Below are positions 5,682-35,639 of a DNA stretch of 36,413 nt, one piece after another. Location of the stretch: positions 1 through 36,413 of the forward strand of contig CALWPI010000005.1 of NCBI GenBank assembly GCA_944383385.1, given 5' to 3'. Within the stretch, counting starts at the first letter, position 1. Every line of letters begins with the position of its first letter. The notes under the pieces are model-generated. The model made no database searches, was not told the DNA's origin, and saw only the letters and a program-made list of their open reading frames with translations. The translations under genes and the position numbers were made by a program. This stretch comes from an uncultured Clostridia bacterium. Lineage in GTDB: Bacteria > Bacillota > Clostridia > Christensenellales > UBA1242.

Positions 5682-5713
5682 TTTTCCCCCAAAAAAACAA
5701 GAAATAAAATGTC

Positions 5714-5728: not shown

Positions 5729-5814
5729 TTATATAATATTATAATATCACTTTTTATAATATTAAGCAATATATTTGCAATTATACATATACACGTTTAT
5801 TCCAATAATATCTA

Positions 5815-5842
5815 ACAAAAAAGAGAGTAACATTACTCTCTT
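5815..5842 (-). terminator. Terminator at the 3' end of virB4
   Basis: Leftward: AAGAGAGTAA-TG-TTACTCTCTT then a T-rich tail. The virB4 stop codon (5833-5835) lies within the stem. Confidence 0.85.
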
Positions 5843-8484: not shown

Positions 8485-8525
8485 TTTTATCTCCTATATA
8501 GACCACAGTCTTATAACTACTAATT

Positions 8526-8553
8526 ATTTTACTACATAATAAAGATATTACAA
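8526..8553 (-). promoter_or_regulatory. Promoter of virB4, T4SS-type core
   Basis: Leftward: TTGTAA (8548-8553), 16 bases, TAAAAT (8526-8531). The 15-base core TTATGTAGTAAAATA (8525-8539) is identical to those of the 78-residue gene and virB6. Confidence 0.65.
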
Positions 8554-8677
8554 AATAAAAATCATTATATCTTATATAATAAATTATACCTATTTACACC
8601 CATAATACACAAAATTTGTGATAAACGCATAAAAAAACTCTATAATAGTGTGTTATTCAAAAATTACAATCAAAAAA

Positions 8678-8705
8678 TAAAAAGACGGAATAATTCCGTC
8701 TTTTT
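8678..8705 (-). terminator. Terminator of the virB6-like gene
   Basis: AAAAAGACGGAAT-A-ATTCCGTCTTTTT forms a long symmetric stem immediately after the stop codon of the leftward gene, followed on the leftward strand by more T residues. Confidence 0.85.
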
Positions 8706-8710
8706 ATTTA

Positions 8711-11410: not shown

Positions 11411-11446
11411 AATATTCCCCTTATATTATATTATATTTACGAAAAT

Positions 11447-11475
11447 ATTTTACTACATAATTATACAAAAATCAA
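11447..11475 (-). promoter_or_regulatory. Promoter of the virB6-like gene, T4SS-type core
   Basis: Leftward: TTGATT (11470-11475), 17 bases, TAAAAT (11447-11452). Core TTATGTAGTAAAATA at 11446-11460. The rest of the 260-base gap to 11670 shows nothing I can support apart from the terminator at 11643-11667. Confidence 0.65.
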
Positions 11476-11642
11476 TCAACTGTACATTAAAAATACATAT
11501 TATGACAAAATTATTATGTACATAAAATTATTATAGATTTATTTTGCACTAATTACGAGATAATATTAATACACTATTCTAGAATCTCTTTATTTCACAC
11601 CATGTACGAGGATAACGCCATTATTTTAAGTAAAAATACAAT

Positions 11643-11667
11643 AAAAAGGCGGGGAATTCCCCACCAA
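11643..11667 (-). terminator. Terminator of the first pilin-like gene
   Basis: Leftward: GGTGGGG-AATT-CCCCGCC followed by TTTTTAT, directly after the stop codon at 11671-11673. Confidence 0.85.
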
Positions 11668-11670
11668 AGT

Positions 11671-12144
11671 TTATTGAACAGCGCCGGTATCTTGTGTTCC
11701 AAACAATCCTTTTAGTGAATCCATTATTAATTGATAATTATCAAGATACAAGAAAAGTATTCCCATAAGAACAAAGACCAAAACAAGCCCAATTATAGCG
11801 TTTGTTAAACGTTTCTTCATCTCACGTCTTTTATCATCCCCGTCAGCTTTTGCCATATTGACACCAATAGCGATTGCATATATTGTTCCACCTGCAGGTA
11901 TTACAATCAAAAGAACCAAACAAAACACTTTGAATCCTTCTACTATTTCATTAAAATCTTCATCTTCTGTTGTCCACTCCTGGTCTGACGCCTGCGAATA
12001 TACATCAACATTTTGTACTACTTGCGCGTCATCAACGACGGCTTGATTATTTGATTGCGTGCATAGTGGCGCAAAAATCATCATCATAATGACAATTAGC
12101 GCTGAAACACCTAATATCTTAAACCAGAAATTACTTTTAGCCAT
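11671..12144 (-). CDS. VirB2-like T4SS pilin, longer paralogue
   Basis: A 157-residue membrane protein, start MAKSNFWFKILG with AGGGG upstream. It has a signal-peptide-like first helix (residues 8-28, VSALIVIMMMIFAP). An acidic Gln/Asp/Glu-rich outer segment (about 30-65) is followed by two transmembrane helices (about 70-95 and 112-133) joined by a short charged loop. The signature GTIYAIAIGVNMAKADGDD, then RREMKKRL and a hydrophobic helix, matches the pattern of Gram-positive T4SS pilin-like (TrbC/VirB2) proteins. It is clearly paralogous to the gene at 12308-12649. It would provide the pilus or channel subunit; which of the two is the major subunit cannot be told from sequence. Confidence 0.78.
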   Translation of the reverse strand: MAKSNFWFKILGVSALIVIMMMIFAPLCTQSNNQAVVDDAQVVQNVDVYSQASDQEWTTEDEDFNEIVEGFKVFCLVLLIVIPAGGTIYAIAIGVNMAKADGDDKRREMKKRLTNAIIGLVLVFVLMGILFLYLDNYQLIMDSLKGLFGTQDTGAVQ

Positions 12145-12171
12145 ATACTGTTCCCCTATATTTACTTTGTT

Positions 12172-12200
12172 ATTTTACACTATTATTTGCAATTTGTCTA
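12172..12200 (-). promoter_or_regulatory. Promoter of the first pilin-like gene
   Basis: Leftward: TAGACA (12195-12200), 17 bases, TAAAAT (12172-12177). The -10 context GTGTAAAATAA resembles, but does not equal, the shared T4SS core. Confidence 0.55.
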
Positions 12201-12271
12201 TAATATTGAACAAAATTAGCAATGTGACTATTGAGATCGTTGTGTTTGTGTTGGTTTTATATTAAGTAACA

Positions 12272-12297
12272 ACAAAAAAGCCCATTAGGGCTCTTTT
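12272..12297 (-). terminator. Terminator of the second pilin-like gene
   Basis: Leftward: AGAGCCC-TAAT-GGGCTTTTTT, a short GC stem with a T-run, ten bases after the stop codon of the gene at 12308-12649. Confidence 0.8.
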
Positions 12298-12307
12298 GCT
12301 TTTGTTA

Positions 12308-12649
12308 TTATTCTGTTGGTGTTCCTTCTTGGCTTACCAATCCAAATATTGTGTCAACATTTGCTGCAAGCAACTTGAGAAGTACTAATATAATGATTGT
12401 GACAACAAAAGCAATGATAAAGTATAGCATTTTCTTCTTTGCTTCTGTCCTTGCCTCTTCACTCTCTGCCTTTGCAAGCTGGACACCTAACCATACTGCA
12501 TATATTGCACCGACTGCTGCAACTATTATAATAATTGGCCATAGTGCTGTATTGATACCGTCAACAATTGGTTTCAAAATGTTAGTATACCATTCTTTAT
12601 CTTGTACACCAGTACTTGTGTCTCCTAAAAGGCGTAAAAACATTCCCAT
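12308..12649 (-). CDS. VirB2-like T4SS pilin, shorter paralogue
   Basis: An upstream ATG at 12664 overlaps the ribosome binding site ATGGAGGAAAT, so the start at 12649 (MGMFLRLLGD) is chosen, giving 113 residues. After a short N-terminal segment come two transmembrane helices (about 35-57 and 72-95) with the loop GVQLAKAESEEARTEAKKK. Aligned with the neighbour at 11671-12144, it shares GxIYAxxxGVxxAKA, then RxExKK, then a long Ile/Val/Leu helix ending in a LAAN-D/LYLDN-like motif. It lacks the neighbour's signal-like first helix and acidic segment. It is the gene closest to the divergent virD4 promoter. Confidence 0.78.
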   Translation of the reverse strand: MGMFLRLLGDTSTGVQDKEWYTNILKPIVDGINTALWPIIIIVAAVGAIYAVWLGVQLAKAESEEARTEAKKKMLYFIIAFVVTIIILVLLKLLAANVDTIFGLVSQEGTPTE

Positions 12650-12675
12650 TTTTATTTCCTCCATTCGTTAGTTTT

Positions 12676-12704
12676 ATAATAACACATAAAAACTATCGTG
12701 TAAA
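12676..12704 (-). promoter_or_regulatory. Promoter of the second pilin-like gene
   Basis: Leftward: TTTACA (12699-12704), 17 bases, TATTAT (12676-12681), preceded by TTATGTG, similar to the TTATGTAG of the other T4SS promoters. GGAGG follows before the ATG. Confidence 0.6.
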
Positions 12705-12780
12705 ACAATTTTGCGTCATTTCTAAAATTATTCTACATTTTCGTCTTTTAATACATTTATTTTATTTGCAATCACAAAAC

Positions 12781-12822
12781 TAGTCAAATATTTTTGACTA
12801 TAAATTTATAAACAAGTATACT
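12781..12822 (+). promoter_or_regulatory. virD4 promoter with overlapping palindromes
   Basis: TTGACT (12794-12799), 17 bases, TATACT (12817-12822). The -35 lies in a perfect inverted repeat, TAGTCAAA-TATT-TTTGACTA (12781-12800). The -10 lies in the palindrome AAGTATACTT. Both are well placed to be repressor sites in the divergent region between the pilin and virD4 genes. Confidence 0.6.
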
Positions 12823-12863
12823 TATACTAGATTATTTATTCTATATTGAATGCGGAGTGTAAT

Positions 12864-14897
12864 ATGGACAAATTTCTTAAAAATTTATTTATTGTATTAG
12901 GAGTAACTGTGCTTGGACTATTGCTGGGAGCATTGCTTGATGCTGGTAGCAATAGCGAATTTACTTCATTTAGTTTGCAATTATCCAATTTTTACTCAAC
13001 CTATGCTATGATATTTTTATTTGTTGGATTTTTGGGTGGTCTATTATTTACATTATCTTCCGTCGCAAAAAAACTTGACAAAAATGAAGGCAAAGCAAAA
13101 GTTCAAGATAAAGACGGCCTTAGCAAATTCTATGACCAACACTGGTGCACAGAAAAAGAACTCGAAACCAATCCAAAATATTTGTATACGACGTACGATG
13201 CTCTACCATACAAAAACAAAGTAGGTTTTCCTATCCGTGCACAAATGGTTAATAGCCACAAAATGAAAATCAATATGTATGACAAAGACTTTCACTGTTT
13301 GGTCATTGGTACAACAGGTGCTGGTAAAACAACACAATATATGAACCCTATGATTCAAATATTTGGTGAATCTGCTGTAAAACCTAGTATGGTCATCACT
13401 GACCCAAAAGGCGAACTATACAATTTGCATAGTGAGAAACTACGAAAGAAAGGTTATCGTATTATAGTATTTGACCTTGCTGACCCATTTCGTTCAACTC
13501 GTTGGAACCCAATGGACAAAGCATATATGTTACATCAAAGAGCACTAAATATACACAAGGAAGTAAAGGTGCATACTCAGCCTGGCGATACTCCTGATAG
13601 ATATCCAAATTTGAGAAAATTCCAAGGCACAACATATGGTAACGAATGGTATGAATTTAATGGCATGGCCTTTGCAGATAGACCAACACTTGATAGAAAT
13701 CTAAAAAGTAAAGCACAAGCGTTAGATAACGAAGCCGAAGAAGACTTGAAAGACATTGCAACTGCACTTTGTCCTATCAAAGACCTAAATCAACCAAGAT
13801 GGGAAGAAGGTGCTCGTGGATTTGTCTTAGGGGTCATGATGGCAATGCTAGAAGACTCTGGTGACCCATCACTTGGAATGACACGAGAAAAATTTAATTT
13901 CTATAATGTTGCTAGAATTTGTAATACAAAAGATAATGATATCAACAATCCACAAAAGACAATTTGTGAATATTTCTTGGGTCGTGACCCACTAAGCCAC
14001 GCAGTACAATCTGCAAGCGAAGTTGTAAGCAATACAGAAAAAACTCGTACAAACTATATGGGTATTGTGTCTGGTTATGTGTCTGTGTTTGCTGACAGTG
14101 GTATATGTTATGCTACAAGTGTCAATGAAATGGACCTTACAAACTTTGACAATCAAAGCACTGCTCTATTTATAAAGATACCTGACGAAAAACAAACTCG
14201 TCACGCAATTGCTACAATATTTATCACACAATTATACAAAATACTTGTCGAAATCGCTCGTCAAAATGGTATCAAAGCAAATGATGATACTAAGGCGAAA
14301 TTGTCACATCCTACCTACTTTTTGTTAGATGAGTTCGCCAATATGCCAAAAATTGAAGAATTTGAAAAGAAAATTGCTATTGGTAGAAGTAGAAGGATAT
14401 TCTTCTGTTTGATACTGCAAGCATATTCACAACTTACTAACTTGTATGGTCAACAAGCAAGCGATATCATAAAGGACAACTGTAATATGCACGTATACAT
14501 TGCCTCAAATGATAGCGAAACCAAAAAAGCATTTTCCGAAAGATGTGGTAATATCACAGTCACAACAGAAACAACATCAGTCTCTCATGGTAGTAAGAAA
14601 GAAGACGGCAAGAGCACAAGCACATCACAGCAAAAAGACCAAAGGCCACTTATATACCCTGACGAACTTGGTTCATTGAAGGACGAACTTATTGTTTCTA
14701 TCTTGAAAGAACCTCCTATCAAAACAAAGTTTACTCCAAGTTATCTTGCCACAAACATTTATAGTATGACCCCTCCTCCACAATCTGCTGCTGTATCAAA
14801 CTATTTTGATGAACACGAATTTTTCTACGATATTAGCAAGAGAAACAAAATGATCTTAAAACCTACTTCTCGTGGTGGATTTGATGTCTTCTCATAA
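12864..14897 (+). CDS. virD4: VirD4/TraG-type coupling ATPase
   Basis: The coupling protein recruits DNA or protein substrates to the T4SS channel. The in-frame ATG at 12846 overlaps the ribosome binding site; GGAG seven bases before the ATG at 12864 selects MDKFLKNLFIVLG and gives 677 residues. Two N-terminal transmembrane helices lie at about 8-25 and 45-65. Walker A is GTTGAGKTT at 149-157, followed by VITDPKGELY. Walker B is FLLDEFANMPKI with D489-E490, then a Gln-rich sensor stretch (LILQAYSQLTNLYG). These are all typical of the VirD4/TraG/TcpA group. It is the only T4SS gene on the + strand, divergent from the pilin genes, and ends in its own terminator. Coupling proteins normally pair with a relaxase or effectors; no relaxase is in view. 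Confidence 0.94.
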   Translation: MDKFLKNLFIVLGVTVLGLLLGALLDAGSNSEFTSFSLQLSNFYSTYAMIFLFVGFLGGLLFTLSSVAKKLDKNEGKAKVQDKDGLSKFYDQHWCTEKELETNPKYLYTTYDALPYKNKVGFPIRAQMVNSHKMKINMYDKDFHCLVIGTTGAGKTTQYMNPMIQIFGESAVKPSMVITDPKGELYNLHSEKLRKKGYRIIVFDLADPFRSTRWNPMDKAYMLHQRALNIHKEVKVHTQPGDTPDRYPNLRKFQGTTYGNEWYEFNGMAFADRPTLDRNLKSKAQALDNEAEEDLKDIATALCPIKDLNQPRWEEGARGFVLGVMMAMLEDSGDPSLGMTREKFNFYNVARICNTKDNDINNPQKTICEYFLGRDPLSHAVQSASEVVSNTEKTRTNYMGIVSGYVSVFADSGICYATSVNEMDLTNFDNQSTALFIKIPDEKQTRHAIATIFITQLYKILVEIARQNGIKANDDTKAKLSHPTYFLLDEFANMPKIEEFEKKIAIGRSRRIFFCLILQAYSQLTNLYGQQASDIIKDNCNMHVYIASNDSETKKAFSERCGNITVTTETTSVSHGSKKEDGKSTSTSQQKDQRPLIYPDELGSLKDELIVSILKEPPIKTKFTPSYLATNIYSMTPPPQSAAVSNYFDEHEFFYDISKRNKMILKPTSRGGFDVFS

Positions 14898-15187: not shown

Positions 15188-18100
15188 ATGCAAAAGAATA
15201 TTATTGCTAAAATTTTCGCAATTACTATTGCCGTCAGTTGTATGCTGACAGGATTTTTTGTGGTAAGTGGCAAAAAGGTCAATGCTGCCGAGACATATAC
15301 TGTTATTGAACAGTTGCCTGACGCAGAAAGATTTGTAATAAACAAAGTAAGTTATAGACAAGGCAATATTACAAATTCGAATCTTACTTTTGAAGGCGCA
15401 AGCAATCAAACAAATGTGTTCAATATGAGTGCTGCCCTATCTCCTGATAACAATGTCGCAAAAGGCGAAGATGTCATGCTTAACAATTATGGCAACAATC
15501 AAAGCACAGATTCTTATGAAATGTTGCTTATCTCCTTTGGTGATATAAATGGTTCATACAATGCTGATATGACAAAAGTGCTCTACACACATATCGTGAG
15601 TGTTACTTTGGATGTAAATGGCAACAGTTATGATATATCAACTAGCGACAATTATTTTGGTGGCAAAGCCGAAACTGGATATACTAATTATCCATCTTTA
15701 ACAGACCAAGACCTTGGACTACAACTTGGTTCAAATAAAATGGTAGAAACATCAAACATAGTCACATCTCAATTTACAACATTGCTTGACTTAAATGCAC
15801 TTGGTATAAATAGTTTGACAGAAGAAGGACACTATACTATTTCCTTCAATTTCTCATACATGGTATGTGATTATGTCGACGGACAAGAATCTAACCCACA
15901 AGTCGTCAATAACGTAAAATATGTATACGACTTTTATTTGTTCAGCAACACAAATTTTGCACAACAATACAAAGACTATAATAACTATCCAGAATTTTTG
16001 GGTTACAACATAAATGAAAGCAATGATGCAAATGATTTTGTCATAAGTCCAGAAGGCACGATGACATACTATGATTATAACAATAGATTACTCTCTCCTA
16101 CCCTTCAATATGACGCAGAAAATTATAACTTGTCATATACAAAAAAACGTACAACAACGGATACATATACCACAGTATTGACTAATGGTACGGAAGACAC
16201 AAAAATTCTTACAACATACAAAAATGGGAATTTTGCATTCTATCAAGAATTGTCTCCTACTGTCATTGACGGCGTAAAACGTTATATTGTCAATTACGAT
16301 TTTAGCGATATGAGCACATACAATTTGCATTTTGCTTATCAAATCAAAGCTGATAATGGATATCGCATCTTGGATAATGAAGGATATACTGCTGTTATGT
16401 ATAATGGCAAAAGCTCATTAAAAGGCGAAATCCTACACCCAGACCAAGCAATCCTACACGTCTATGGGGTTAGAACTTATATGACAGGAGCAAAGCCAAC
16501 ATTCTTTGCTCAAGACGGCTATACATTTAATGCTGACTTCACTGCTAGATATTATTTGTATTCTACAATTGGCACTATTGATAATACGCATTTGTATGCT
16601 AGTATGTATGACTATTGGAATGATGCTGATTTGACAAAAGAATATCAATACGATAGCACAAGTGATATGCTATTCCCTGAAATCAACTTGTCAAGTCTAT
16701 ACTTTGATGTATATGGTGTAGCAAATTTTGAAGACAATCAACCAACAAGCACAATCACTAGATACTCAAATCTAGATGATATGATTGCTGGTGTGGATGA
16801 AGATAACGTTTCGCTTGGCACAACTTCAAGACTTTATCTAGATAGCACTATTGGCGAAGAGACGGGTTATTATGTCGTCAAGGTAGATATCAAATTTAAT
16901 GAAAGAAGTAATGATGCTCACTATACTCAATATTTTGTATTTGCCAGAGTCAGTGGCGAACCAAAAGTCTCAATACATACAATAGACCAAAATAGCAGCA
17001 CACAAAACTTGATTTCTCCTTTCTATACCAATAAAGACGTTGTCTTCTCTATCGGTTATGATAGTCACAAAGAAAGTGGCAACGATTATATTGGTTATCT
17101 AAACTATCAATATTTTTGCAAACCATATATCGCTGAAATATATTATGGTGGAGAAAATTATGCATCAAATTATACACTTATAACAGACAATATCATAAGT
17201 TACTCCCCTTATGGTGGGGCAAATGCTAACGCAACTCGCGTTACAAACAGTGGTAGATATAGATTGGTTGTAAAATATGGCAGTAGTGGACTTGGCAGTA
17301 ATTCGTATAGTTTTATTATAGACAAAGACCCTATTGACAAGGTGAACGCATATAATGTATCTTTGACTCTTGATGAACAACATTACGTGCGAGAAAGTAT
17401 TGCAAATACTACTACAAACAAAATTTTTGCACTAGGATATGATTCAAAAGCAAGTGGTGCAAGTATCGTTGTAGAATATAAAAAATACGAATTGCAATCA
17501 ATAAAAGACTATGCTCAACTATACAGTATGACAGGCTCTTCAATAACAGCAATTTCTACTAATTATAAAATTGATTTTAACAACGTAAAAAACATTTTTG
17601 ATAATCAAAATGTTGAATGGGATATATACAAATATCTATTTGATGGCTCAAACAATAATTATGAAATGAATTCTGTATTGCGTCCAAGTGTACCTACAAT
17701 ATATTATTTTAGACTAACTGACCAAGCAGGCAACACGACATACCTTATTCATTTCTTTGACAACTCTACACCATATGCAGTCTTTGAACCACAACCAACA
17801 AACAATTACAACATAGTTTCAAGCGAAACAAGTTTGATTTGGGCAAATAGAAAAGGTATTTTGATTGAAAATTATCAAGCAGACCCTGATTATCCAATTT
17901 CAACACTAATATTTAGTAACGTCAATGGTATTACGAACAATTATGGTGTTCAAAACGTACAAAAAGACGGCACCTATGCACAAATGATTTTCAATTCATT
18001 GGATAATGTTGACGCATCGTTTACAGTTCAACAAGAAAATGGACAAAACTTGACAGAACAAACATCTTACAATCCTTTGGCAGTAAATAAATTAGTTTAT

Positions 18101-21100
18101 TATCCAGAGGGAGAAACAAATATCGCTAGCGCAATATTTGCTGGCGAAGGCAATATTGATGTAACAATAACTGATGCATTAGGCAATAGTTATAACACAA
18201 ATATTGAGATGAACCTTGACAATTCTTTGGGACTTGTTTATGCAAAAAATAGTAGTGATTCTACTATAACTAGAATAAACACACTAAATACAACTATTAT
18301 AAACGACCAACAACTTTATTTCTCATACTTAAATGACGTTCCTGGATATGAGTTGGGAGAGGGTGATGTACAATACATGTACTTCCCTATTGACCAATAT
18401 AGTTATGCAAATGTCAATTCATTACTCGAATTTAATAGACTGACTGACCTTACGAGTTACGAAAACCTACCAACAGGATATGCTATTTCTTATCCATTTG
18501 TGGCAACAAGTAATGTTTGGTCAACAGTTACTATTGACAATAATTTCGCATACCCTGACGGCAACCTTAGTGAGAGCAACACAAGAGTGTATTCCAACAT
18601 AATAAATCCAATGCCTGTTGGTGCAAATACATATTCAAAAGAAGGTCTTTACATCATAAAGAGAACTTATCCAGATTTGATTGATGAAAACTCAACTGAT
18701 AGTCAAACAAAATATTTTATCATCATTCTAGATAGGTCAAATATATATGATATTGACGCTTCAACAGTTAGTGTTGACAGTCAAGGCAACAAGACATACA
18801 GCATTGATTATTATTTTGAAAACGGGTCTGGAACATCAATTGTATTGGGCGTCAATGGCACACCAATCACGCTTGATGCTGTGGATATTCAAGCATACAA
18901 AAATAATAATGCAACTCTCTCATTCACATCAAAAAGATTGCCAATGAGATTGACTTTACCACAAGACAAATACAATACTTATCAAGCATTAAATATGTTG
19001 TCCACGCTAAACTTGACTGACGAGACAATTGACGAGACAACAATTAGAAACATTGCGCTTAATAACTCATCTAGTCAAAAATTCAAATTGACTGCAACTT
19101 TGAGTTATGCAAAAGATAATAATTCTATTGTGCAAACAATTGCAAGCACATTAGACAACACAAATTATACACAATACTTTGACATAAATAGTGCTGGTAG
19201 ATACACCTTGAATATCAAAGCCTCAACAGATGGCGAAAACGAATATTCTTATAATCTTGTGTTTAATGTAGAAAACTCTACCCCACAAGCAATATTTACA
19301 AGCACGGTCAATCATACAAACATTGGTAGTAGCAGTGTTGTAAATAGTGAAGGAACAACAAAAACCGTTTCATTCAATAATATAAATGACAACGAATTGT
19401 TCCTAGAAATTGAAGATTACAAAACAACATTTGAGTCTCGTATCAATCTATCAAACATTGTTCTAAATTACGAAAATCAATCTTATACACTTGCAATTAG
19501 TTATGACGGAGAAAAATATGTCATGACAAGCAATGGTCAAGATGTTTCAAATAGTTTAGATGTCACACAACAATCAGATAGAACAAAATATGTCATTGAT
19601 ATGTATGCTGTTTGTGGTAATCAAGAAGGCAATTATTCTGCCACAATTTACTACTATGATACAAACAATTCAACCACATTGAATGTCGTTGTAGACAGGA
19701 CAAAGCCTACTATCAACTTGAATAAACTCATATCTTATGACAAGTGGAGCGATACTCAAATAGATACTTCTACCTACTTCCTTGCAATGCCAAATGACTT
19801 TGAGTTCGAAAATAATAATAGCGCTCTTGAAACACAAAATATTTATATTAGAAAAATTGCTGATGTTACAGCAAATGGCTCGATGCCAGATTATACTCAA
19901 ACTGTTGACTTTAACCCAACGGACAAAACATTCACAGCTCTAAACTGGTCATTATTAGATAAAAATGATAATGACAATATCTATATTGCAGAAATTTTGC
20001 AAACAGCAAATATGACTGATTCTGGATATTATGAGATTGTAGAGGCTGACCAGGCTGGCAACTATACCATTTATGCATTTATTATAATAAACGACACTGC
20101 ACTTGAACCTCAATACAACTTCTCTTATACTAACTTAAATAGCGAGACAGTCAATAGCTTTACATTACCAAACAAAGATGCCGTGGTAACCGATGACCCA
20201 TCTTCACCAATACTATGGAGTAGCAATAACTCTGTTGAGATAAAAGCAAAAGAATTGCAATTCACTGCAATTGACACAGCATATACAAGTATGTTTGTTG
20301 ACCCATGGCAAAAGATTATTATTCGCAGAGGCGATAATAACGCCGTTGTTTATACAATTACGCTTGACCCTACCCAATATGGTATGAATGCAAATTATAA
20401 TGATTTGATGGATAGATTCAATCAAGCAATTTCTGCTATTGAACAAGATGACAGCAAAACTTGTTATAATTATATAATCACAATTACGAATAGATTTGGC
20501 GATGATTTTACAATACAATACAAAATACCTACTGCAAAATTATCACTAGAAATTCAACAGATATCTAATAATTTGTTTGAAGTAACTATTCCAGTTGATA
20601 CTGTTGTCGGTGGAGAAACTGTCATTACAAAATTTAATGTATACAAGTTTAGTCAAAACAGTTGGCAAGAAATAACTCGTGATGACGAAAACAAGAGTAT
20701 TTCACATAGCCCTGCAGGAAATACAAAATATAGATTTGGTGTGGGTATGTATCGTTTCTACACACAAGATAATTTTGGACGTGAGACAACGGTCTATTAT
20801 GGATTTGGAGTCGCATACAACTATGAGTATTCATATTCTGGTATTGCACAAGAGATAGAAGACACAACTTATACTGCCGGAATGGTTACAACTACTTATA
20901 CATCAGACACTTACACCTCATATATTGATTTCTATGACGGAACAGCTTGGATAACTTACAATTCAGCAATGAATAATATTTATACAAGAAATACTGAAAT
21001 ATCAATCGTACAAGCAGATTCTACTACAAGAAAAATTGTGTTTAATCTCAAACAAAATACTGAACTTACAAGCGTCACAATTAGATTAAGGCTTGTTGCA

Positions 21101-23026
21101 AATGGTATAACTGACCAAGGACAAAGTGTTGTAGTGTCCAAAACTTTCTGCATCACACACGAATTGCAAGACATTATTCTAAAAAATAATGGCGACCAAG
21201 TCATTAGTGGTATCAGCCATGACAGAAACAACCCAACTGAACTTAGCGAAGATGTCAAAATCACGTGGGAAGACGGATTGTTTGGAGCAAGTGTCAATTT
21301 GACGCGTACATACTATGACGAAAACTTGCAAAGAGATGTCACTGAAACAATCAACAACATTCCAAAAGATTATACTATTTCAAATGTTGGTCTATACAAA
21401 ATAGAAATAACTAATGGACTTGGCTATACGTCTAATGACAAAACACTATATATTAGACGTTACGAAGCAGATATGATAACATATGCCGTAGTCGGTGTTT
21501 CAAGTAATGGCGCTGAACAACGTCTCAACGCAAGTCCATATCTGTCTAGTTATAATGGAAATCCTGTCTATGTATTCTATGCTCCTTCTAGATACACTCA
21601 AATCGTGTATGAAGGCAGTGACACAATAGATAGCAACTCATATATCTTGATTAGAACAAACAAAAATAACAATTTACAAGTTGAAAAAGTTGATGATACC
21701 GTCCCTAACCTATATAGAATATATGGTGCAGGCTCATCAGGTTCTGAAAGATACATTCAAATTATATTAGTACCAGAAAGTAACAATATCTTAAATTACT
21801 TTGAATTGCTCGATATGGATTTGAGTGCACCAATCTATAACTACGAAGACTCTGTACTCAAAATAACTTCCAATACAGGCGTGCAAGTATCATTTAGTGG
21901 ATTCAATCCAGTTGAAATAACTGCTGGCGAAACAAATATGGGTAATATAATATCTGCCAAATATTATTTCAACAACGTTTATATCGACACAATTTCTTCA
22001 TTAAACGAGATTAATACCGTTCTGCTTTCAACAACTGGTCTGCATTCATTTGAGTTCTATGACCTTGCTGGTAATCAACAAATGTTTGGTTCATCAAATA
22101 GATTGAACTTCTACATTGTCAATAGTGTTTTGTTTACGACAAATGACCAAACACCAATTGACGGAAGAATATATAACGAAGACGTATTGATTACATTAAC
22201 CAATCGTTCACAAGGTAGCAATCTATATGACCAAGCAACACCAACGATTGTTGCAACTAGAAATGGAGTCGAATTTACTCCTGAAAAGATTGAAGCATCA
22301 AATACATTTGCTTGGAAATTTAGTGGTCAAGGTAGATACAAAATAACGATAACAAGCAAAGTGGCTGACTACTTGAACCCATTACAAACAAAAGAAATTT
22401 CAACAACTTACACATTTACAATTATCAATCCAAATCAAGCAGTATCATTTATGAGTATTTCACAAAGCCTTGGATTCACTATTACAAAAGTGACAAAGGG
22501 CGTCAATACAAATTATCCATTGACAGATACACATAGTTTGATATTGTCATCTACGACCTCAGGCAATGATATGTACACAGTGTATGTATCTGCCCCAGTT
22601 GAAGGATATAATACAACGTTTGATTTCTCATTCCAAGTATGGATAAATGACGAAGTCCCTGCAATAGCAAGTTCTATTGACTTTGGTACAGCAACAACAG
22701 ATATTATTACTATTACTTTCAACAAAAACATTATATATGGTCAAATTGGCGAAAGTTATATTACAATAACTGGATTGTCAACCCCAATCGAAATCAACAC
22801 TGAAACGTCAACTGAAAACGTAAGAACAAGCGTTCAAATCTCTATGATTGGCGACACGTGGATTCGCATTTACACAAAAGACGGCAACTTGGTTGCTTCA
22901 TACAAAGTAACAAGAAATGAGCCATTAAATACTACGGCAATCATTGTTATAAGTATAGCAGTCGTTGCAGTCATAGTTGCTATTATACTCTTTATCGTAC
23001 TAAGACGTAGATTACGTGTAAGATAA
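15188..23026 (+). CDS. Giant Ig-like surface protein with C-terminal membrane anchor
   Basis: A 2612-residue secreted protein with GGGGAGA before the ATG. The signal peptide spans residues 1-33 or 34 (positive KNIIAK, hydrophobic core, cleavage near KKVNA-AE). The ectodomain is Asn, Ser, Thr and Tyr rich and Cys-poor. It carries many beta-sandwich-like units marked by a D-x-AGN/GN turn and a following strand, such as DQAGNTTYLIHF (about 845), DALGNSYN (about 995), DQAGNYTIYAFI (about 1621), DNFGRETTVYYGF (about 1861) and DLAGNQQ (about 2292). These resemble bacterial Ig-like domains. A single helix at about 2581-2605 followed by RRRLRVR is a stop-transfer anchor; there is no LPxTG sortase signal. 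Likely an adhesin or contact protein. It lies on the same strand as virD4 but has its own promoter and terminator, so a link to the T4SS is only positional. Confidence 0.85.
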   Translation: MQKNIIAKIFAITIAVSCMLTGFFVVSGKKVNAAETYTVIEQLPDAERFVINKVSYRQGNITNSNLTFEGASNQTNVFNMSAALSPDNNVAKGEDVMLNNYGNNQSTDSYEMLLISFGDINGSYNADMTKVLYTHIVSVTLDVNGNSYDISTSDNYFGGKAETGYTNYPSLTDQDLGLQLGSNKMVETSNIVTSQFTTLLDLNALGINSLTEEGHYTISFNFSYMVCDYVDGQESNPQVVNNVKYVYDFYLFSNTNFAQQYKDYNNYPEFLGYNINESNDANDFVISPEGTMTYYDYNNRLLSPTLQYDAENYNLSYTKKRTTTDTYTTVLTNGTEDTKILTTYKNGNFAFYQELSPTVIDGVKRYIVNYDFSDMSTYNLHFAYQIKADNGYRILDNEGYTAVMYNGKSSLKGEILHPDQAILHVYGVRTYMTGAKPTFFAQDGYTFNADFTARYYLYSTIGTIDNTHLYASMYDYWNDADLTKEYQYDSTSDMLFPEINLSSLYFDVYGVANFEDNQPTSTITRYSNLDDMIAGVDEDNVSLGTTSRLYLDSTIGEETGYYVVKVDIKFNERSNDAHYTQYFVFARVSGEPKVSIHTIDQNSSTQNLISPFYTNKDVVFSIGYDSHKESGNDYIGYLNYQYFCKPYIAEIYYGGENYASNYTLITDNIISYSPYGGANANATRVTNSGRYRLVVKYGSSGLGSNSYSFIIDKDPIDKVNAYNVSLTLDEQHYVRESIANTTTNKIFALGYDSKASGASIVVEYKKYELQSIKDYAQLYSMTGSSITAISTNYKIDFNNVKNIFDNQNVEWDIYKYLFDGSNNNYEMNSVLRPSVPTIYYFRLTDQAGNTTYLIHFFDNSTPYAVFEPQPTNNYNIVSSETSLIWANRKGILIENYQADPDYPISTLIFSNVNGITNNYGVQNVQKDGTYAQMIFNSLDNVDASFTVQQENGQNLTEQTSYNPLAVNKLVYYPEGETNIASAIFAGEGNIDVTITDALGNSYNTNIEMNLDNSLGLVYAKNSSDSTITRINTLNTTIINDQQLYFSYLNDVPGYELGEGDVQYMYFPIDQYSYANVNSLLEFNRLTDLTSYENLPTGYAISYPFVATSNVWSTVTIDNNFAYPDGNLSESNTRVYSNIINPMPVGANTYSKEGLYIIKRTYPDLIDENSTDSQTKYFIIILDRSNIYDIDASTVSVDSQGNKTYSIDYYFENGSGTSIVLGVNGTPITLDAVDIQAYKNNNATLSFTSKRLPMRLTLPQDKYNTYQALNMLSTLNLTDETIDETTIRNIALNNSSSQKFKLTATLSYAKDNNSIVQTIASTLDNTNYTQYFDINSAGRYTLNIKASTDGENEYSYNLVFNVENSTPQAIFTSTVNHTNIGSSSVVNSEGTTKTVSFNNINDNELFLEIEDYKTTFESRINLSNIVLNYENQSYTLAISYDGEKYVMTSNGQDVSNSLDVTQQSDRTKYVIDMYAVCGNQEGNYSATIYYYDTNNSTTLNVVVDRTKPTINLNKLISYDKWSDTQIDTSTYFLAMPNDFEFENNNSALETQNIYIRKIADVTANGSMPDYTQTVDFNPTDKTFTALNWSLLDKNDNDNIYIAEILQTANMTDSGYYEIVEADQAGNYTIYAFIIINDTALEPQYNFSYTNLNSETVNSFTLPNKDAVVTDDPSSPILWSSNNSVEIKAKELQFTAIDTAYTSMFVDPWQKIIIRRGDNNAVVYTITLDPTQYGMNANYNDLMDRFNQAISAIEQDDSKTCYNYIITITNRFGDDFTIQYKIPTAKLSLEIQQISNNLFEVTIPVDTVVGGETVITKFNVYKFSQNSWQEITRDDENKSISHSPAGNTKYRFGVGMYRFYTQDNFGRETTVYYGFGVAYNYEYSYSGIAQEIEDTTYTAGMVTTTYTSDTYTSYIDFYDGTAWITYNSAMNNIYTRNTEISIVQADSTTRKIVFNLKQNTELTSVTIRLRLVANGITDQGQSVVVSKTFCITHELQDIILKNNGDQVISGISHDRNNPTELSEDVKITWEDGLFGASVNLTRTYYDENLQRDVTETINNIPKDYTISNVGLYKIEITNGLGYTSNDKTLYIRRYEADMITYAVVGVSSNGAEQRLNASPYLSSYNGNPVYVFYAPSRYTQIVYEGSDTIDSNSYILIRTNKNNNLQVEKVDDTVPNLYRIYGAGSSGSERYIQIILVPESNNILNYFELLDMDLSAPIYNYEDSVLKITSNTGVQVSFSGFNPVEITAGETNMGNIISAKYYFNNVYIDTISSLNEINTVLLSTTGLHSFEFYDLAGNQQMFGSSNRLNFYIVNSVLFTTNDQTPIDGRIYNEDVLITLTNRSQGSNLYDQATPTIVATRNGVEFTPEKIEASNTFAWKFSGQGRYKITITSKVADYLNPLQTKEISTTYTFTIINPNQAVSFMSISQSLGFTITKVTKGVNTNYPLTDTHSLILSSTTSGNDMYTVYVSAPVEGYNTTFDFSFQVWINDEVPAIASSIDFGTATTDIITITFNKNIIYGQIGESYITITGLSTPIEINTETSTENVRTSVQISMIGDTWIRIYTKDGNLVASYKVTRNEPLNTTAIIVISIAVVAVIVAIILFIVLRRRLRVR

Positions 23027-30675: not shown

Positions 30676-30703
30676 TAAAAAAAGACACTACACTGTGTCT
30701 TTC
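30676..30703 (-). terminator. Terminator of uvrC
   Basis: Leftward: AAAGACAC-AGTGTA-GTGTCTTTTTTT. The uvrC stop codon (TAG) lies in the loop/stem region. Confidence 0.85.
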
Positions 30704-32532
30704 TTTGTATGAAAATAAGAATATATATCGGTTGCAGTATTTTTGTTTATACCTTTGACTGCGCACAATTCTTCTATGCTTGCATTTTTTATATTTTCAA
30801 TATTTTTGAAATATTCAAACAATTGCGCAATTCTCTTTTGTCCAAGATTTTTGATATTATCAAGTTCACATTTAATCTGCCTTTTACCACGTAGTAATCT
30901 ATGAAATGTAATTGCAAATCTGTGACTCTCATCTCGAACATTTTGTAATAATTTTAGTGCATAATCGCCTTTTGATAAAACAATTGGTTTGGATTCGTGT
31001 GGCACATAAATTTCTTCATTTTTCTTTGCAAGTGAAATCATATCTATATCAAGGCCACTTTGTTGTAGCATTTGATATGCGTATCCAAGTTGTCCTTTAC
31101 CACCGTCTATAAGTATCAAATCTGGCAATTTACTAAAACTCGTATCCTCACCTTTTTTATATTCTAATAGTCTTCTATTGAGTGTTTCTTTCATGCACTC
31201 AAAGTCATTTGATTGATGAACGGTTTTTATCTTAAACTTTCTATAATTTTTTGATGATTTTTCGCCATTTTCAAACACAACCATGCTAGATACAATATCT
31301 GTGCCACTAATATTGCTTATATCGTATCCTTCAATTCTCATTGGCAATTTTTTGAGCATAAGCACCTTTTTTAGTCGTTCCATCGCCCCCATTGTTTTTA
31401 GGTAATGTAATTCATCTTTTTCAATGCTTCTATTTAGATACTCGCTTGCGTTTTTATTGCTCATTTTTATTAAGTCTTTTTTAGTCCCAATTTTTGGATT
31501 AAACAAGTGCGCATGCGCATTATATTGTCTAATATATTGTTCCAGAGTCTCCGTATCTTCAATACCTTGCACTAACACCATATTTGGCACAATAGAATTG
31601 GTTGGATAATATTGAGTCAAAAATGACGTAATCACTTCGCCGACATCACTATCCCCACCCAGCACATTATAATTGTTGACACCAAGCATTTTGCCACTGC
31701 GAATTATCATTACACTAACAGCACTGGTTTGACCGTTGGTTGCATACCCAAAGACATCAATATCCGTATTGTTTGCAAATTCTGTAAGCATTTTTTCGTC
31801 CATAAATTGCAACATTTTTAGGTCTTCACGGTATTCTATTGCTCTTTCATACTGCTCCATTTCGCTACACAAAAGCATTTTTCTAGTTAGTACTGCTTTT
31901 GCTACCGTATGGTCACCATTAAAAAAATCAATTACTTTATTGACTTCCAGACGATATTGTTCCTTGCTGACTCGTCCTGTACAAGGCGCAAGACATTTGC
32001 CTATATGGTAATTTAGGCACTCCCTTTTCAACTTTTTTGTTTCACTAAAATGTTCATGACATGTTCTAAGACAAAACACATTTTGTATCAAATTAAAAAG
32101 CCTATTTGCATTAACTGTGCCAAAATAGGGACCAAAATATTTGCTGCCGTCATTTTTGACTTTTCTTACAATCTCAACTTTTGGGAAATCACTTTTGACA
32201 TCAATCTTAAAAAACGGATATGCTTTGCCATCTTTTAGCATAATATTATAAAATGGTTGATTGTCTTTTATAAGATTTGCTTCAAGATTGAATGCTTCAA
32301 GTTCGGTATTTGTGAGTATGTATTCAAAATCTGCTACATTGCTCACCATTTTCTTTACTTTTTCTGTTTTGTTCTTGCTGGCAATAAAATAACTTGAAAC
32401 TCTTCGTTTCAAATTTTTGGCTTTTCCAATATATATGATGTGTCCACCACTATCCAACATTTTATAAACGCCAGGAGTCGAAGGCATGTGTGACACTTTG
32501 TTTTTAATTTTTTCTAAACAACTTTTGTCCAT
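30688..32532 (-). CDS. uvrC: UvrABC system protein C
   Basis: UvrC makes the dual incisions in nucleotide excision repair. The 614-residue protein has an N-terminal GIY-YIG nuclease domain (MPSTPGVYKMLD, IIYIGKAKNLKRRVSSYF; residues about 15-95). A Cys-containing segment CLNYHIGKCLAPC (about 170-182) and a UVR motif around YERAIEYREDLKML follow. The RNase H-like second nuclease has IEGYDISNISGTDIVSSM and LILIDGGKGQL. C-terminal helix-hairpin-helix motifs are IKNLGQKRIAQLF and AVKGINKNTATDIY. All parts are in the normal order and length. The start is fixed by homology; instead of a close ribosome binding site, a consensus -10 box ends five bases before the ATG. Confidence 0.97.
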   Translation of the reverse strand: MDKSCLEKIKNKVSHMPSTPGVYKMLDSGGHIIYIGKAKNLKRRVSSYFIASKNKTEKVKKMVSNVADFEYILTNTELEAFNLEANLIKDNQPFYNIMLKDGKAYPFFKIDVKSDFPKVEIVRKVKNDGSKYFGPYFGTVNANRLFNLIQNVFCLRTCHEHFSETKKLKRECLNYHIGKCLAPCTGRVSKEQYRLEVNKVIDFFNGDHTVAKAVLTRKMLLCSEMEQYERAIEYREDLKMLQFMDEKMLTEFANNTDIDVFGYATNGQTSAVSVMIIRSGKMLGVNNYNVLGGDSDVGEVITSFLTQYYPTNSIVPNMVLVQGIEDTETLEQYIRQYNAHAHLFNPKIGTKKDLIKMSNKNASEYLNRSIEKDELHYLKTMGAMERLKKVLMLKKLPMRIEGYDISNISGTDIVSSMVVFENGEKSSKNYRKFKIKTVHQSNDFECMKETLNRRLLEYKKGEDTSFSKLPDLILIDGGKGQLGYAYQMLQQSGLDIDMISLAKKNEEIYVPHESKPIVLSKGDYALKLLQNVRDESHRFAITFHRLLRGKRQIKCELDNIKNLGQKRIAQLFEYFKNIENIKNASIEELCAVKGINKNTATDIYSYFHTKKDTV

Positions 32533-32537
32533 ACTAT

Positions 32538-32566
32538 ATTATATCCTAATAAATAAAACTATTCAA
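32538..32566 (-). promoter_or_regulatory. Promoter of uvrC, predicted leaderless start
   Basis: Leftward: TTGAAT (32561-32566), 17 bases, TATAAT (32538-32543), then five bases to the ATG. Transcription would start at or next to the A of the ATG. Confidence 0.7.
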
Positions 32567-32585
32567 TCATTTACTTTGTTTCATC

Positions 32586-32610
32586 AAAAAAGGAAGATTA
32601 CTCTTCCTTT
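32586..32610 (-). terminator. Terminator of the acetyltransferase gene at 32598
   Basis: Leftward: AAGGAAGA-GTAA-TCTTCCTTTTTT. The stop codon TAA is in the loop. Confidence 0.85.
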
Positions 32611-33332
32611 TCTTCATTTGTTAATGTTTTTTCAAGCATATCTTCTATCCTTTTATCTTTTGATACAGTGAAAATACTGTAAGGACAGTTGAATGTTGGT
32701 TTATAACTTTTTAATTTTTTCTTAATCATATATGTAAAATGTTTCTTTATTATTGGTGCAAATATCTTATCAAATACATTTTCATATTTTGCTGTAAAAT
32801 TGTTTTTTCTATGAAATTTTTTTGCTCTTGCTACACTATCCAAAGATATAAACTTTGCTCCAAGATATTTAGAAAAATTTTCTACATGTTTGTGTAGTTC
32901 TGTCCCTATACCCATTTTCCTCAAATCGCGTTGAACAAGCATTGTGGATATGTAGACATAATTTTCATTTTTATTAAATGAATATTCCACATAACCGACT
33001 GGAATTAGTTTTTCGTTAGTTTTAGAAAATGTGTATATCTCACACCCGTATACATCAGTGTCGTCATATAAATCGTAATTGTTTTTGATATACTGCACAT
33101 AGTAATACAAAATATCTCGCCCATTATCTTCTTTTTTTTCACATTTGTCAATACCATATTGCATTGCTCTCGTTTTGCCTTGAAACATATTCTTTTCGTT
33201 TATGTCATAATTTTCTGCAATATTTTGACACTCTTGTTTGAAGTCAAAAAATCCTCTTATCAGTTCGCTATTACTTACCGGACCATAGGCAATTAAATTG
33301 TGTTCAAATTTCTTTTCTTGTTGTTTCGTCAT
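32598..33332 (-). CDS. GNAT-family acetyltransferase-like protein, most divergent paralogue
   Basis: 244 residues. The acetyl-CoA binding motif A is RDLRKMGIGTELHKHVENFS with R138-x-x-G141-x-G143, preceded by the beta strand VYISTMLVQ. KKFHRKNNF follows, the usual late GNAT strand and turn. The C-terminal FNCPYSIF matches the CPxxI tail of the three paralogues upstream. The N-terminal 110 residues lack a known domain, but LIAYGPVSNSELIRGFF echoes the paralogues' YxxFGxGKxSxKxLIK motif. It starts 40 bases after the gene at 33373-34044, with no terminator between, so the two are likely cotranscribed. AAAGGA lies 14 bases before the ATG, further than usual. Substrate unknown. Confidence 0.78.
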   Translation of the reverse strand: MTKQQEKKFEHNLIAYGPVSNSELIRGFFDFKQECQNIAENYDINEKNMFQGKTRAMQYGIDKCEKKEDNGRDILYYYVQYIKNNYDLYDDTDVYGCEIYTFSKTNEKLIPVGYVEYSFNKNENYVYISTMLVQRDLRKMGIGTELHKHVENFSKYLGAKFISLDSVARAKKFHRKNNFTAKYENVFDKIFAPIIKKHFTYMIKKKLKSYKPTFNCPYSIFTVSKDKRIEDMLEKTLTNEEKEE

Positions 33333-33372
33333 TTTCTTGTACTATATCCTTTAATTTAGTATATTAACCATT

Positions 33373-34044
33373 TTATCTTTCAATTAAAAAAGCAAATGGA
33401 CAAATTTTTTCTTTTTTTTCTAATACAAATTTTCTTTTTATCATTGGTTCTGTTGAGTTGCAATGAGGCATCTCATATCCGTCATAAATGTCATCACGTT
33501 TATGAAAATAATTGTGTCTATGAAATTTTATTGCACTGGCCACACTATCTAATACAATTGCTTCCATTTTTAGTCTACAAGCCAAATTTTCAATCTCTTT
33601 ATGCATGCTTGACCCTAACCCATGATGTTTATAATTATCAGCAACATTCATATTTGAAATATATATGCACTTGTGTGTTGGGTCAATAAAATAATCAGTA
33701 GAGCCCACAGAGACCAATCCCTCTCCTTTTGGAGATAAGCTATACACATTATATCTATAACAATATTTCCCTTTGCCAAAACAAGACTGAGGAACATAGT
33801 GATTAATATAAAAATATATATTAGGCGTCTTGCCATAGACACTAGGCATCTTTTTGATACCCACCGAATAATTAGGCATATTGACATCAAGATGTGGGTT
33901 TTTGTCATCAATATCGTATGAAGATTTTATAATATCTAAAAATACAGATAAGTTCAAAATACATTTTATAAATTGTTTTTTACTTATCCTGCCGGCACAA
34001 AACAGTGGATATTTGATATTGTCATTCAATGATTGTTTTTCCAT
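33373..34044 (-). CDS. GNAT-family acetyltransferase-like protein, paralogue
   Basis: 223 residues. N-terminal motif YPLFCAGRISKKQFIKCIL (12-30), then a YFYINHYVPQ strand. GNAT motif A is YKHHGLGSSMHKEIENLA with K139 in place of the usual first Arg/Gln and G142, G144. IKFHRHNYF and the tail KICPFAFL follow. The enzymatic core resembles other GNATs, but the 110-residue front half is shared only with its neighbours here. Predicted leaderless: the -10 ends six bases before the ATG and no Shine-Dalgarno is seen. Which molecule is acetylated cannot be inferred; the Lys substitution in motif A may weaken cofactor binding. Confidence 0.78.
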   Translation of the reverse strand: MEKQSLNDNIKYPLFCAGRISKKQFIKCILNLSVFLDIIKSSYDIDDKNPHLDVNMPNYSVGIKKMPSVYGKTPNIYFYINHYVPQSCFGKGKYCYRYNVYSLSPKGEGLVSVGSTDYFIDPTHKCIYISNMNVADNYKHHGLGSSMHKEIENLACRLKMEAIVLDSVASAIKFHRHNYFHKRDDIYDGYEMPHCNSTEPMIKRKFVLEKKEKICPFAFLIER

Positions 34045-34050
34045 ATTTAC

Positions 34051-34079
34051 ATTATATCAAATAACAACACTAATTACAA
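34051..34079 (-). promoter_or_regulatory. Promoter of the acetyltransferase at 33373, predicted leaderless
   Basis: Leftward: TTGTAA (34074-34079), 17 bases, TATAAT (34051-34056), then six bases (34045-34050) to the ATG. Confidence 0.7.
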
Positions 34080-34108
34080 TACTGAAAATTTTTCAATTAA
34101 ACGCTTTA

Positions 34109-34138
34109 TAAAAACAAGGATGCGTGCATCCTTGTTTT
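34109..34138 (-). terminator. Terminator of the acetyltransferase at 34137
   Basis: Leftward: AAAACAAGGATGC-AC-GCATCCTTGTTTT and further T. A 13-base perfect stem beginning at the stop codon. Confidence 0.9.
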
Positions 34139-34820
34139 AGTTATTAGTTAGTTCTGTATCTTGTTTTGTCTTCAATATTTCAAACGGACATTTTATGTTA
34201 TGGTCTTGTCTTTTAACATGTTTTTTTATCATTGATGGCAAAATTTCATCATCAAAATTTACAAAATCAAATCCATTATCAAAGTGAAATTTTATTGCTT
34301 CGCTTAAAGAATTTAGTCTCAAAATTCTAATATTTGCTTTTGCCGCAATGTCTTCAATACTTTTGTGTAATTGAGAGCCGACCCCATGATTTCTATATTC
34401 CTTTTTAACGGACATATTGTTGATATATATTTCGTTTATATTTCTATCTATTAAGTAATCTACACTCCCTATTTCAATTAAACTTTTAGGATTATATTTA
34501 TCAACTGCAAAGATACAATATTGATAATATTCTTTATTGTCTCCCGAAAATTGTGGTACTAAAAAATTTATATAAAAATATGAATATTTTTTGTCATTTT
34601 CAATATCAGTCAACACATCTGCGCCCACAAAAATATTTTCAATTTTGCCCTCATCTTTTTTGCTATAATAATCAATGATTTCACGTTTTATTGTCTTTGA
34701 TATAGTTGACACTTTCAACATCATTTTTATCATTGTTTTTAGTGATGATTTGTTTGAGCCTAAAATAGGATATTGTGTTGGTTTATCGAATTTGTTTTCT
34801 TCTAATTTCATTTCTTTCAT
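34137..34820 (-). CDS. GNAT-family acetyltransferase-like protein, paralogue
   Basis: 227 residues. N-terminal motif YPILGSNKSSLKTMIKMML (17-35), strand YFYINFLVPQ (81-90), then GSVDYLIDRNINEIYINNM. Motif A is YRNHGVGSQLHKSIEDIAA with R143, G146 and G148. AIKFHFDNGF and the tail IKCPFEIL follow. An alternative ATG lies three codons later (M4), with no Shine-Dalgarno for either. The first ATG is favoured because its -10 box ends exactly six bases upstream, the same geometry as in the sister genes. This gene has its own promoter and terminator, so each paralogue is a separate unit apart from the last pair. Confidence 0.8.
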   Translation of the reverse strand: MKEMKLEENKFDKPTQYPILGSNKSSLKTMIKMMLKVSTISKTIKREIIDYYSKKDEGKIENIFVGADVLTDIENDKKYSYFYINFLVPQFSGDNKEYYQYCIFAVDKYNPKSLIEIGSVDYLIDRNINEIYINNMSVKKEYRNHGVGSQLHKSIEDIAAKANIRILRLNSLSEAIKFHFDNGFDFVNFDDEILPSMIKKHVKRQDHNIKCPFEILKTKQDTELTNN

Positions 34821-34826
34821 GCAAAT

Positions 34827-34855
34827 ATTATATCAAAAATCTATCTACTATTCAA
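34827..34855 (-). promoter_or_regulatory. Promoter of the acetyltransferase at 34137, predicted leaderless
   Basis: Leftward: TTGAAT (34850-34855), 17 bases, TATAAT (34827-34832), then six bases (34821-34826) to the ATG. Confidence 0.72.
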
Positions 34856-34897
34856 TACCAAATTTTTTACATTTATTCATTAAAAGATAAAATGTGA

Positions 34898-34927
34898 ATA
34901 AAAAAAGAAGAATATTATTCTTCTTTT
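34898..34927 (-). terminator. Terminator of the acetyltransferase at 34915
   Basis: Leftward: AAAAGAAGAAT-AAT-ATTCTTCTTTT followed by TTTATTC. The stop codon TAA is inside the hairpin. Confidence 0.8.
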
Positions 34928-35604
34928 CCAAGTTCACAATTTTGCAAAATTTGTAATGGACAGCGAATTTCTTTTTGCTGTTTATATATTTTTTTCTTTA
35001 TCATATCTGGCATAATTTCCATATCTTTTGAATTTTGTTTACAAAATCTAAAACCATTATGATAATGAAAATTAATGGCATAATCAACGCTTTGTAACGT
35101 GATTTTGCGTATTTTCAGTTTTGCTGCAATATCTTCTAATGCATGGTGCAATTGACTACCAACGCCACAATTTCTATATTTTGGTCTTGTTTCAATATAA
35201 ATTATTTCCATTTTTTTCTTTCGCAAATTGACCAAGTAACTAATCGAACCTAATGTTTCTATATTATTTGGGTTATCAATATCTACACCAAAAGCAACAT
35301 ACCTAAAATGCTCCATATCTTCCCAGAATGATTGTTTGACAAAATAATTAATATAAAAATAAATATATTTAGTATTATTATTCCTATTATTAATCAAATC
35401 AACGCCAACATCAATATTTTTTATTTTGCTCTCATCTCTTTTAACAAACTTCAAATCATATTCGCCTTTTATTATATCAACTTGATTTGACATTCTAAGC
35501 ATTGTTTTTATCAATTGTTTAGTTGACATTTTTCCATATCCAAAAACTTGATATTTGCTATCAAGATGCATGTCTATTGATTTTGATTGTTCATTATCTT
35601 TCAT
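34915..35604 (-). CDS. GNAT-family acetyltransferase-like protein, paralogue
   Basis: 229 residues, closest to the paralogue at 34137. N-terminal motif YQVFGYGKMSTKQLIKTML (18-36), strand YFYINYFVKQ (82-91), motif A YRNCGVGSQLHHALEDIAA with R144, G147 and G149. AINFHYHNGF (about 176-185) and the tail IRCPLQIL follow. It is the first of the four tandem copies, directly downstream of the ArsR-type gene. No terminator separates it from that gene, so it may receive read-through in addition to its own leaderless-type promoter. Function beyond an acetyltransferase fold is unknown; the substrate may be a small molecule or a protein N-terminus or lysine. Confidence 0.8.
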   Translation of the reverse strand: MKDNEQSKSIDMHLDSKYQVFGYGKMSTKQLIKTMLRMSNQVDIIKGEYDLKFVKRDESKIKNIDVGVDLINNRNNNTKYIYFYINYFVKQSFWEDMEHFRYVAFGVDIDNPNNIETLGSISYLVNLRKKKMEIIYIETRPKYRNCGVGSQLHHALEDIAAKLKIRKITLQSVDYAINFHYHNGFRFCKQNSKDMEIMPDMIKKKIYKQQKEIRCPLQILQNCELGKEE

Positions 35605-35610
35605 ACATTT

Positions 35611-35639
35611 ATTATATCAAAATAAAAATATGATTTCAA
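35611..35639 (-). promoter_or_regulatory. Promoter of the acetyltransferase at 34915, predicted leaderless
   Basis: Leftward: TTGAAA (35634-35639), 17 bases, TATAAT (35611-35616), then six bases (35605-35610) to the ATG. No Shine-Dalgarno sequence. Confidence 0.75.

Follow-up and report, generated by a model that had tools for sequence, protein, structure and literature searches.

Predicted leaderless mRNAs for uvrC and three tandem acetyltransferase genes in an uncultured family of gut Clostridia

The window analyzed here is a 36,413-nucleotide stretch of DNA, contig 5 of a 924-kb, 60-contig metagenome-assembled genome (MAG) of an uncultured Clostridia bacterium. On its minus strand it carries uvrC (30688 to 32532, ATG at 32532 to 32530; recognized by its Pfam UvrC domains) and an array of GNAT acetyltransferase genes (Pfam PF00583), of which GNAT2 (33373 to 34044), GNAT3 (34137 to 34820), and GNAT4 (34915 to 35604) share with uvrC an unusual start region. 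An earlier note on this DNA had claimed that in these four genes a TTGnnn-17-TATAAT promoter ends five or six bases before the start codon, and direct reading together with a promoter scan found it so. In the following, Nx denotes the number of bases between the end of the −10 box and the start codon. For uvrC, the −35 box TTGAAT lies at 32561 to 32566 and the −10 box TATAAT at 32538 to 32543 (N5). GNAT2 has TTGTAA at 34074 to 34079 and TATAAT at 34051 to 34056, GNAT3 has TTGAAT at 34850 to 34855 and TATAAT at 34827 to 34832, and GNAT4 has TTGAAA at 35634 to 35639 and TATAAT at 35611 to 35616 (all minus strand and N6). The −35/−10 spacer is 17 bp in all four promoters, and 10 to 11 of 12 positions match the consensus, which qualifies them as sigma-A (sigma-70 type) promoters. 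The three GNAT promoters are also of the extended type, with TG one base upstream of the −10 box (TGA before the box in GNAT2), and all four genes start with ATG.

The four genes were further said to lack a nearby Shine-Dalgarno sequence (SD). This proved correct: none is present upstream of GNAT2, GNAT3, or GNAT4, and the sole SD-like element of uvrC is an AGGA inside the promoter region, which would lie outside the RNA if transcription begins on the ATG. The proposed contrast with neighboring genes was borne out for rplJ and dnaE: each carries a strong SD at its true start (AAAGGAGG-CTATA-ATG and AAAAGGAGG-TACA-ATG, respectively).

Pfam searches revealed four acetyltransferases in the array (32598 to 35604): the three described before, which have the promoter geometry, and a fourth, GNAT1 (32598 to 33332, minus strand), which does not and has AAAGGA upstream, as found by Pfam, paralogy, and SD and hairpin scans. 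Within the array (INDEPENDENCE), identity to GNAT4 is 42% for GNAT3, 34% for GNAT2, and 24% for GNAT1. Homologs of GNAT4 were absent from 39 relatives except for one weak partial match (1/39), and none were found in phages. Since the GNATs are, as judged from their sequences, tandem paralogs of the window's species, the four promoters, although all present, represent two histories only, uvrC and one duplicated GNAT cassette. Intrinsic-terminator hairpins on the minus strand were predicted by scan and folding between GNAT1 and uvrC (32588 to 32611; −14.0 kcal/mol, z −4.2) and between GNAT3 and GNAT2 (34111 to 34138; −14.4 kcal/mol, z −5.4), and folding indicated a terminator-like hairpin between GNAT4 and GNAT3 (approximate limits 34898 to 34930; −10.5 kcal/mol, z −3.2). 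No terminator-type hairpin was found between GNAT2 and GNAT1, and the two genes are therefore probably co-transcribed. The spacers of the GNAT promoters agree in 7 to 10 of 17 bases, close to an unrelated-promoter control (6.9 ± 2.4), while both boxes, the spacing of 17 bp, and N6 are retained. The geometry has thus been maintained while neutral bases changed.

The sampled part of the window's genome has a GC content of 33%. Among 351 usable starts in 432 kb, an SD of at least 5 bases precedes 149, compared to 21 in a control shifted by 30 bases, and SD initiation is thus normal in this genome. An anti-SD was looked for at the 3′ end of the 16S rRNA: no 16S rRNA was found in the genome sequence, and the 3′-end pattern in none of 40 genomes (0/40) as searched. 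Exact TATAAT boxes lie at N5 in three and at N6 in four of the 351 genes, and allowing one mismatch (with T1, A2, and T6 kept) gave 0, 6, 11, and 1 genes at N4 to N7. A scan for promoters with N5/6 starts listed 21 candidates, including one antisense and some unlikely ones; among the genes with such a start are nth, a rarA-like gene, ogt, comF, xerS, a pseudouridine synthase gene, a deaminase-like gene, and spoIIGA.

The check suggested earlier, which compares the number of TATAAT-N5-7-ATG starts with chance, was run on samples and was positive, yielding a sharp peak at N6. We refer to the window genome's family of small-genome gut Clostridia as "the family," with "order" and "class" (Clostridia) as higher ranks of the same lineage. 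Gene calling, which drew on neither promoters nor SDs, covered 60 stretches of 30 relatives and gave 678 family genes from 23 relatives. Here, exact TATAAT occurred at N4 to N8 in 3, 2, 23, 2, and 2 genes, and TATAAT with TTG 16 to 18 bp upstream in 0, 0, 18, 1, and 1. A stricter set of 572 genes, from which uvrC-like genes and five stretches picked near known hits were taken out, retained the peak with exact TATAAT (3, 2, 9, 1, and 2; Poisson P = 9e-6), with one mismatch (9, 7, 30, 8, and 6; P = 2e-10), and with TTG (2, 1, 21, 3, and 3; P = 2e-15). By the one-mismatch count, N6 starts above background make up about 4% of genes. Against chance, the signal in the family is decisive; that of the window's genome taken alone is modest.

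N6 is the textbook placement of a −10 box for a transcription start (+1) on the A of the ATG, and a pyrimidine at −1 followed by a purine at +1 is the usual rule at transcription starts. C or T stands at −1 in all 23 N6 genes and in 361 of the 578 remaining ATG starts (Fisher P = 2.6e-5), as expected if the A of the AUG is the first base of the RNA. ATG is the start codon in 22 of the 23 N6 genes of the relatives versus 578 of 655 other starts.

At the level of the class, we counted TTG-N20-TATAAT-N6-ATG against its N9 counterpart in 196 genomes, N9 being a single control spacing and hence a limited control. The N6:N9 ratio was 59:8 for the six genomes from the family, 21:9 for three further genomes from the order, and 1038:845 for the 187 remaining Clostridia genomes. 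The N6 pattern was present in all 118 of 118 family genomes. Some other Clostridia families (f54 and f40) also lean to N6, with 31 N6 to 6 N9 in f54; f54 and a few others may have leaderless classes.

For uvrC itself, 108 family species from 40 genera were surveyed. The −10 box lies at N6 in 51 species and at N5 to N7 in 61 species from 30 genera; counts for N0 to N15 were 3, 3, 0, 2, 1, 1, 51, 9, 4, 1, 0, 3, 3, 1, 0, and 3. The −1 base of the 51 N6 uvrCs is T in 45, C in 4, and A in 2, and TG precedes the −10 box in 28 of 50 retained N6 promoters. Exact TATAAT at N6 occurs in 43 of 108 uvrCs versus 9 of 572 other genes. Representatives of other families of the order (G025, G031, and G039) share the uvrC geometry. 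It is probable that uvrC joined the leaderless class at an early point in the history of the family. Four species that share a genus (G266, G285, G304, and G321; genus g186) have UvrC open frames of only about 383 amino acids, and the middle of the protein is missing from the match. The gene murB, considered earlier as a possible fifth case, lacks the geometry and was rejected: its nearest −10-like box in the window is TATATT at N3 with no −35 box, and among candidate murB starts in 20 family genomes none has a −10 box at N6 (0/20) and one has it at N5 to N7.

We consider it very probable, from the sequence evidence above, that uvrC and GNAT2 to GNAT4 have ordinary sigma-A promoters giving leaderless mRNAs, as members of a conserved minor class beside the SD majority in the family. 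The earlier prediction of leaderless mRNAs is supported by the N6 peak that places +1 on the A, by the −1 pyrimidine, and by the uvrC geometry kept across the family. The promoter geometry and its one-base precision, the −1 pyrimidine, the conservation at uvrC, the paralogy, and the flanking hairpins are features of the DNA itself; the actual 5′ ends, the 70S mode of initiation, and a possible benefit for regulation we infer. Transcription would start on the A of the AUG, for uvrC on it or within one base, and the resulting mRNA would have no 5′ leader. By analogy with other bacteria, 70S particles would then start on the 5′-terminal AUG without SD pairing; ribosome start on leaderless mRNA without such pairing has been reviewed (PMC9031893). 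Such promoters would constitute a minor, selectively kept class of about 4% of family genes beside a normal SD majority, and the GNATs would be tandem copies of a cassette of promoter, leaderless gene, and terminator.

Several observations weigh against this interpretation. The signal in the window's own genome is weak, as only 7 of 351 genes have exact TATAAT at N5 or N6 and four of these are the uvrC/GNAT locus itself. The window's uvrC is at N5, a base less than is usual in the family and a spacing found in 1 of 108 uvrCs, so its transcription start could fall elsewhere. Moreover, 47 of the 108 species have a uvrC without the N5-7 geometry, and these include the whole genera g11, g14, g18, g20, g180, and g186 and four of five g40 species; in some of them the upstream gene appears, by eye, to run close to uvrC. 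The start caller placed the starts of dnaE and rplJ wrongly, so that the counts are approximate, and the species share kinship, so that the P values overstate independence. Finally, apparent leaderless starts in known Clostridia were, according to PMC5171806, generally accompanied by another start upstream and by a ribosome binding site.

The alternative that survives best is that some of these mRNAs are near-leaderless, the window's uvrC and the N7 species having a leader of 0 to 2 bases or a start just inside the codon. The N5 spacing of the window's uvrC and the 9 of 108 uvrCs at N7 speak for it, but N6 is the norm, and the purine preference of transcription starts would favor the A; we regard this alternative as unlikely. 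It is improbable that the promoters are real while the functional mRNA comes from a start further upstream or from read-through, making the genes leadered in practice. The position of uvrC close behind its upstream gene in several genera fits such a scheme; against it, the three GNATs have no SD at all, the AGGA of uvrC overlaps the promoter, and the hairpins would stop read-through ahead of uvrC, GNAT2, and GNAT3. Chance was also considered, since AT-rich, short intergenic regions of a compact genome could bring TATAAT near ATG accidentally. Apart from the low GC content, it is favored by the exact TATAAT-N5/6-ATG string occurring 88 times in the genome compared to 60 times for the reversed pattern, and most such strings in the genome are therefore background. 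However, chance predicts a broad spread of spacings, which is at odds with a single-base N6 peak flanked by few cases on both sides, with the −1 pyrimidine rule, and with conservation at uvrC and not at murB. We rejected it as very improbable on the sharpness of the N6 peak. Wrong start codons, with the proteins beginning downstream behind a hidden ribosome binding site, might be suspected given MAG sequence and automatic start calls, but this scarcely credible option was rejected as well, because a search for the downstream starts that the earlier note had named as a possible refutation found no SD before any in-frame ATG, GTG, or TTG in the first 50 codons of uvrC and GNAT2 to GNAT4, and the N terminus of uvrC aligns from residue 1 with that of a same-genus relative (G001).

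Which genes carry N6 starts was analyzed in 39 family loci, one per genome, picked by the pattern. In 28 of these, the pattern leads an open reading frame (ORF) of at least 100 codons in a frame that opens at most 45 codons further upstream. Eight of the 28 belong to repair or recombination (rarA-like, recX, addB twice, uvrC, uvrB, xerS, and a Xer-type recombinase) and eight to RNA modification (miaB three times, trhP twice, rluA-type, dusB-type, and rsmD), although many of these assignments come from matches that fall short of the library's own threshold. With uvrC left out, the numbers were 7/27 and 8/27, compared to 0/27 and 2/27 among controls (Fisher P = 0.005 for repair and 0.0001 combined). 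The controls were 30 sampled leading genes, of which three were uvrC and were dropped; fewer than half of the remaining 27 were annotated at cut-offs of 1e-30 or 1e-15, and the leaderless genes were annotated at looser ones (0.001, 1e-20, or 1e-8), which favors the leaderless set. This possible over-representation of DNA-repair and RNA-modification genes is only a lead, because it was noticed post hoc, orthologs recur in the sample, and the cut-offs differed. An xerS-like recombinase gene with an N6 −10 box occurs in two family genera (L283:1536-2615 and L010:1174-2226), and miaB and addB also recur among N6 genes.

In the family, leaderlessness might be a selected regulatory class that would allow genome-maintenance and RNA-modification genes (uvrC, uvrB, addB, recX, rarA, nth, ogt, ung, and xerS; miaB, trhP, rsmD, truA, and others) to be translated under reduced normal initiation, but we consider this unlikely. 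In the survey by Zheng et al. (2011, PMC3160421), categories of information storage and processing had higher shares of leaderless genes, and no pathway bias among leaderless genes was reported for Deinococcus radiodurans (PMC12340547). The earlier note had suggested that the geometry might allow translation under particular ribosome states. According to the review cited above (PMC9031893), other laboratories did not reproduce the MazF stress-ribosome model, and in normally growing Mycoplasma pneumoniae leaderless-like genes are reported to be translated as well as leadered ones (PMC10568206).

If the prediction holds, an uncultured gut Clostridia family joins the lineages in which leaderless genes form a real class, and at a single gene, uvrC, a leaderless start can persist across most of a family's genera while SD starts are normal in the genome. 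The predictions are precise to one base and can be checked in gut metatranscriptomes with 5′-end data; SD-based gene callers may misplace starts in this family. Elsewhere, the window harbors a conjugation/type IV secretion module (5833 to 14897) with a TraG-type P-loop ATPase, two T4SS pilin-like proteins, and a coupling protein, adjoined by an ORF of 2,612 amino acids (15188 to 23026). The large ORFs at 1116 to 5729 (1,537 amino acids) and 8711 to 11410 (899 amino acids) gave no Pfam match at 1e-6.

No report of a leaderless uvrC or of leaderless genes in this lineage was found in the open-licence PMC literature, so that a known kind of initiation apparently was unreported for this lineage. 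In the survey by Zheng et al. (2011, PMC3160421), bacterial leaderless genes have a TA-like signal that precedes the start by about 10 bp. The genes studied here resemble those of that survey in having a −10 box where an SD would otherwise stand, with the TATAAT form and preceding TG seen in low-GC Firmicutes; the Firmicutes cases described there are from Lactobacillales and Mycoplasma, whereas ours are from an uncultured Clostridia family. In the −10-adjacent ORFs of Deinococcus-Thermus, a −10 motif 6 to 7 bp before the ORF likewise gives leaderless mRNA and is conserved among homologs, but in D. radiodurans it concerns close to a third of all genes, and its form is the degenerate TANNNT (PMC12340547), compared to about 4% of genes with near-consensus TATAAT and a −35 box here. 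M. pneumoniae is alike in its small, low-GC genome, its Firmicutes descent, and its SD-independent starts; there, 16% of transcripts are leaderless-like and 8.1% of genes have an SD (PMC10568206), whereas SD starts are common here. The claim that such starts are unusual in a low-GC Gram-positive bacterium held in part: the family stands out from other Clostridia in its N6:N9 ratio, but leaderless starts reach 2 to 4% in other, mapped Clostridia (PMC9045289, PMC5171806) and were predicted to average 18.3% in five mycoplasma genomes (PMC3160421). The solventogenic clostridia and C. phytofermentans have the same class of starts at a similarly low percentage; in those reports they were judged rare or equipped with a ribosome binding site, whereas the family described here displays a sharp, conserved geometry.

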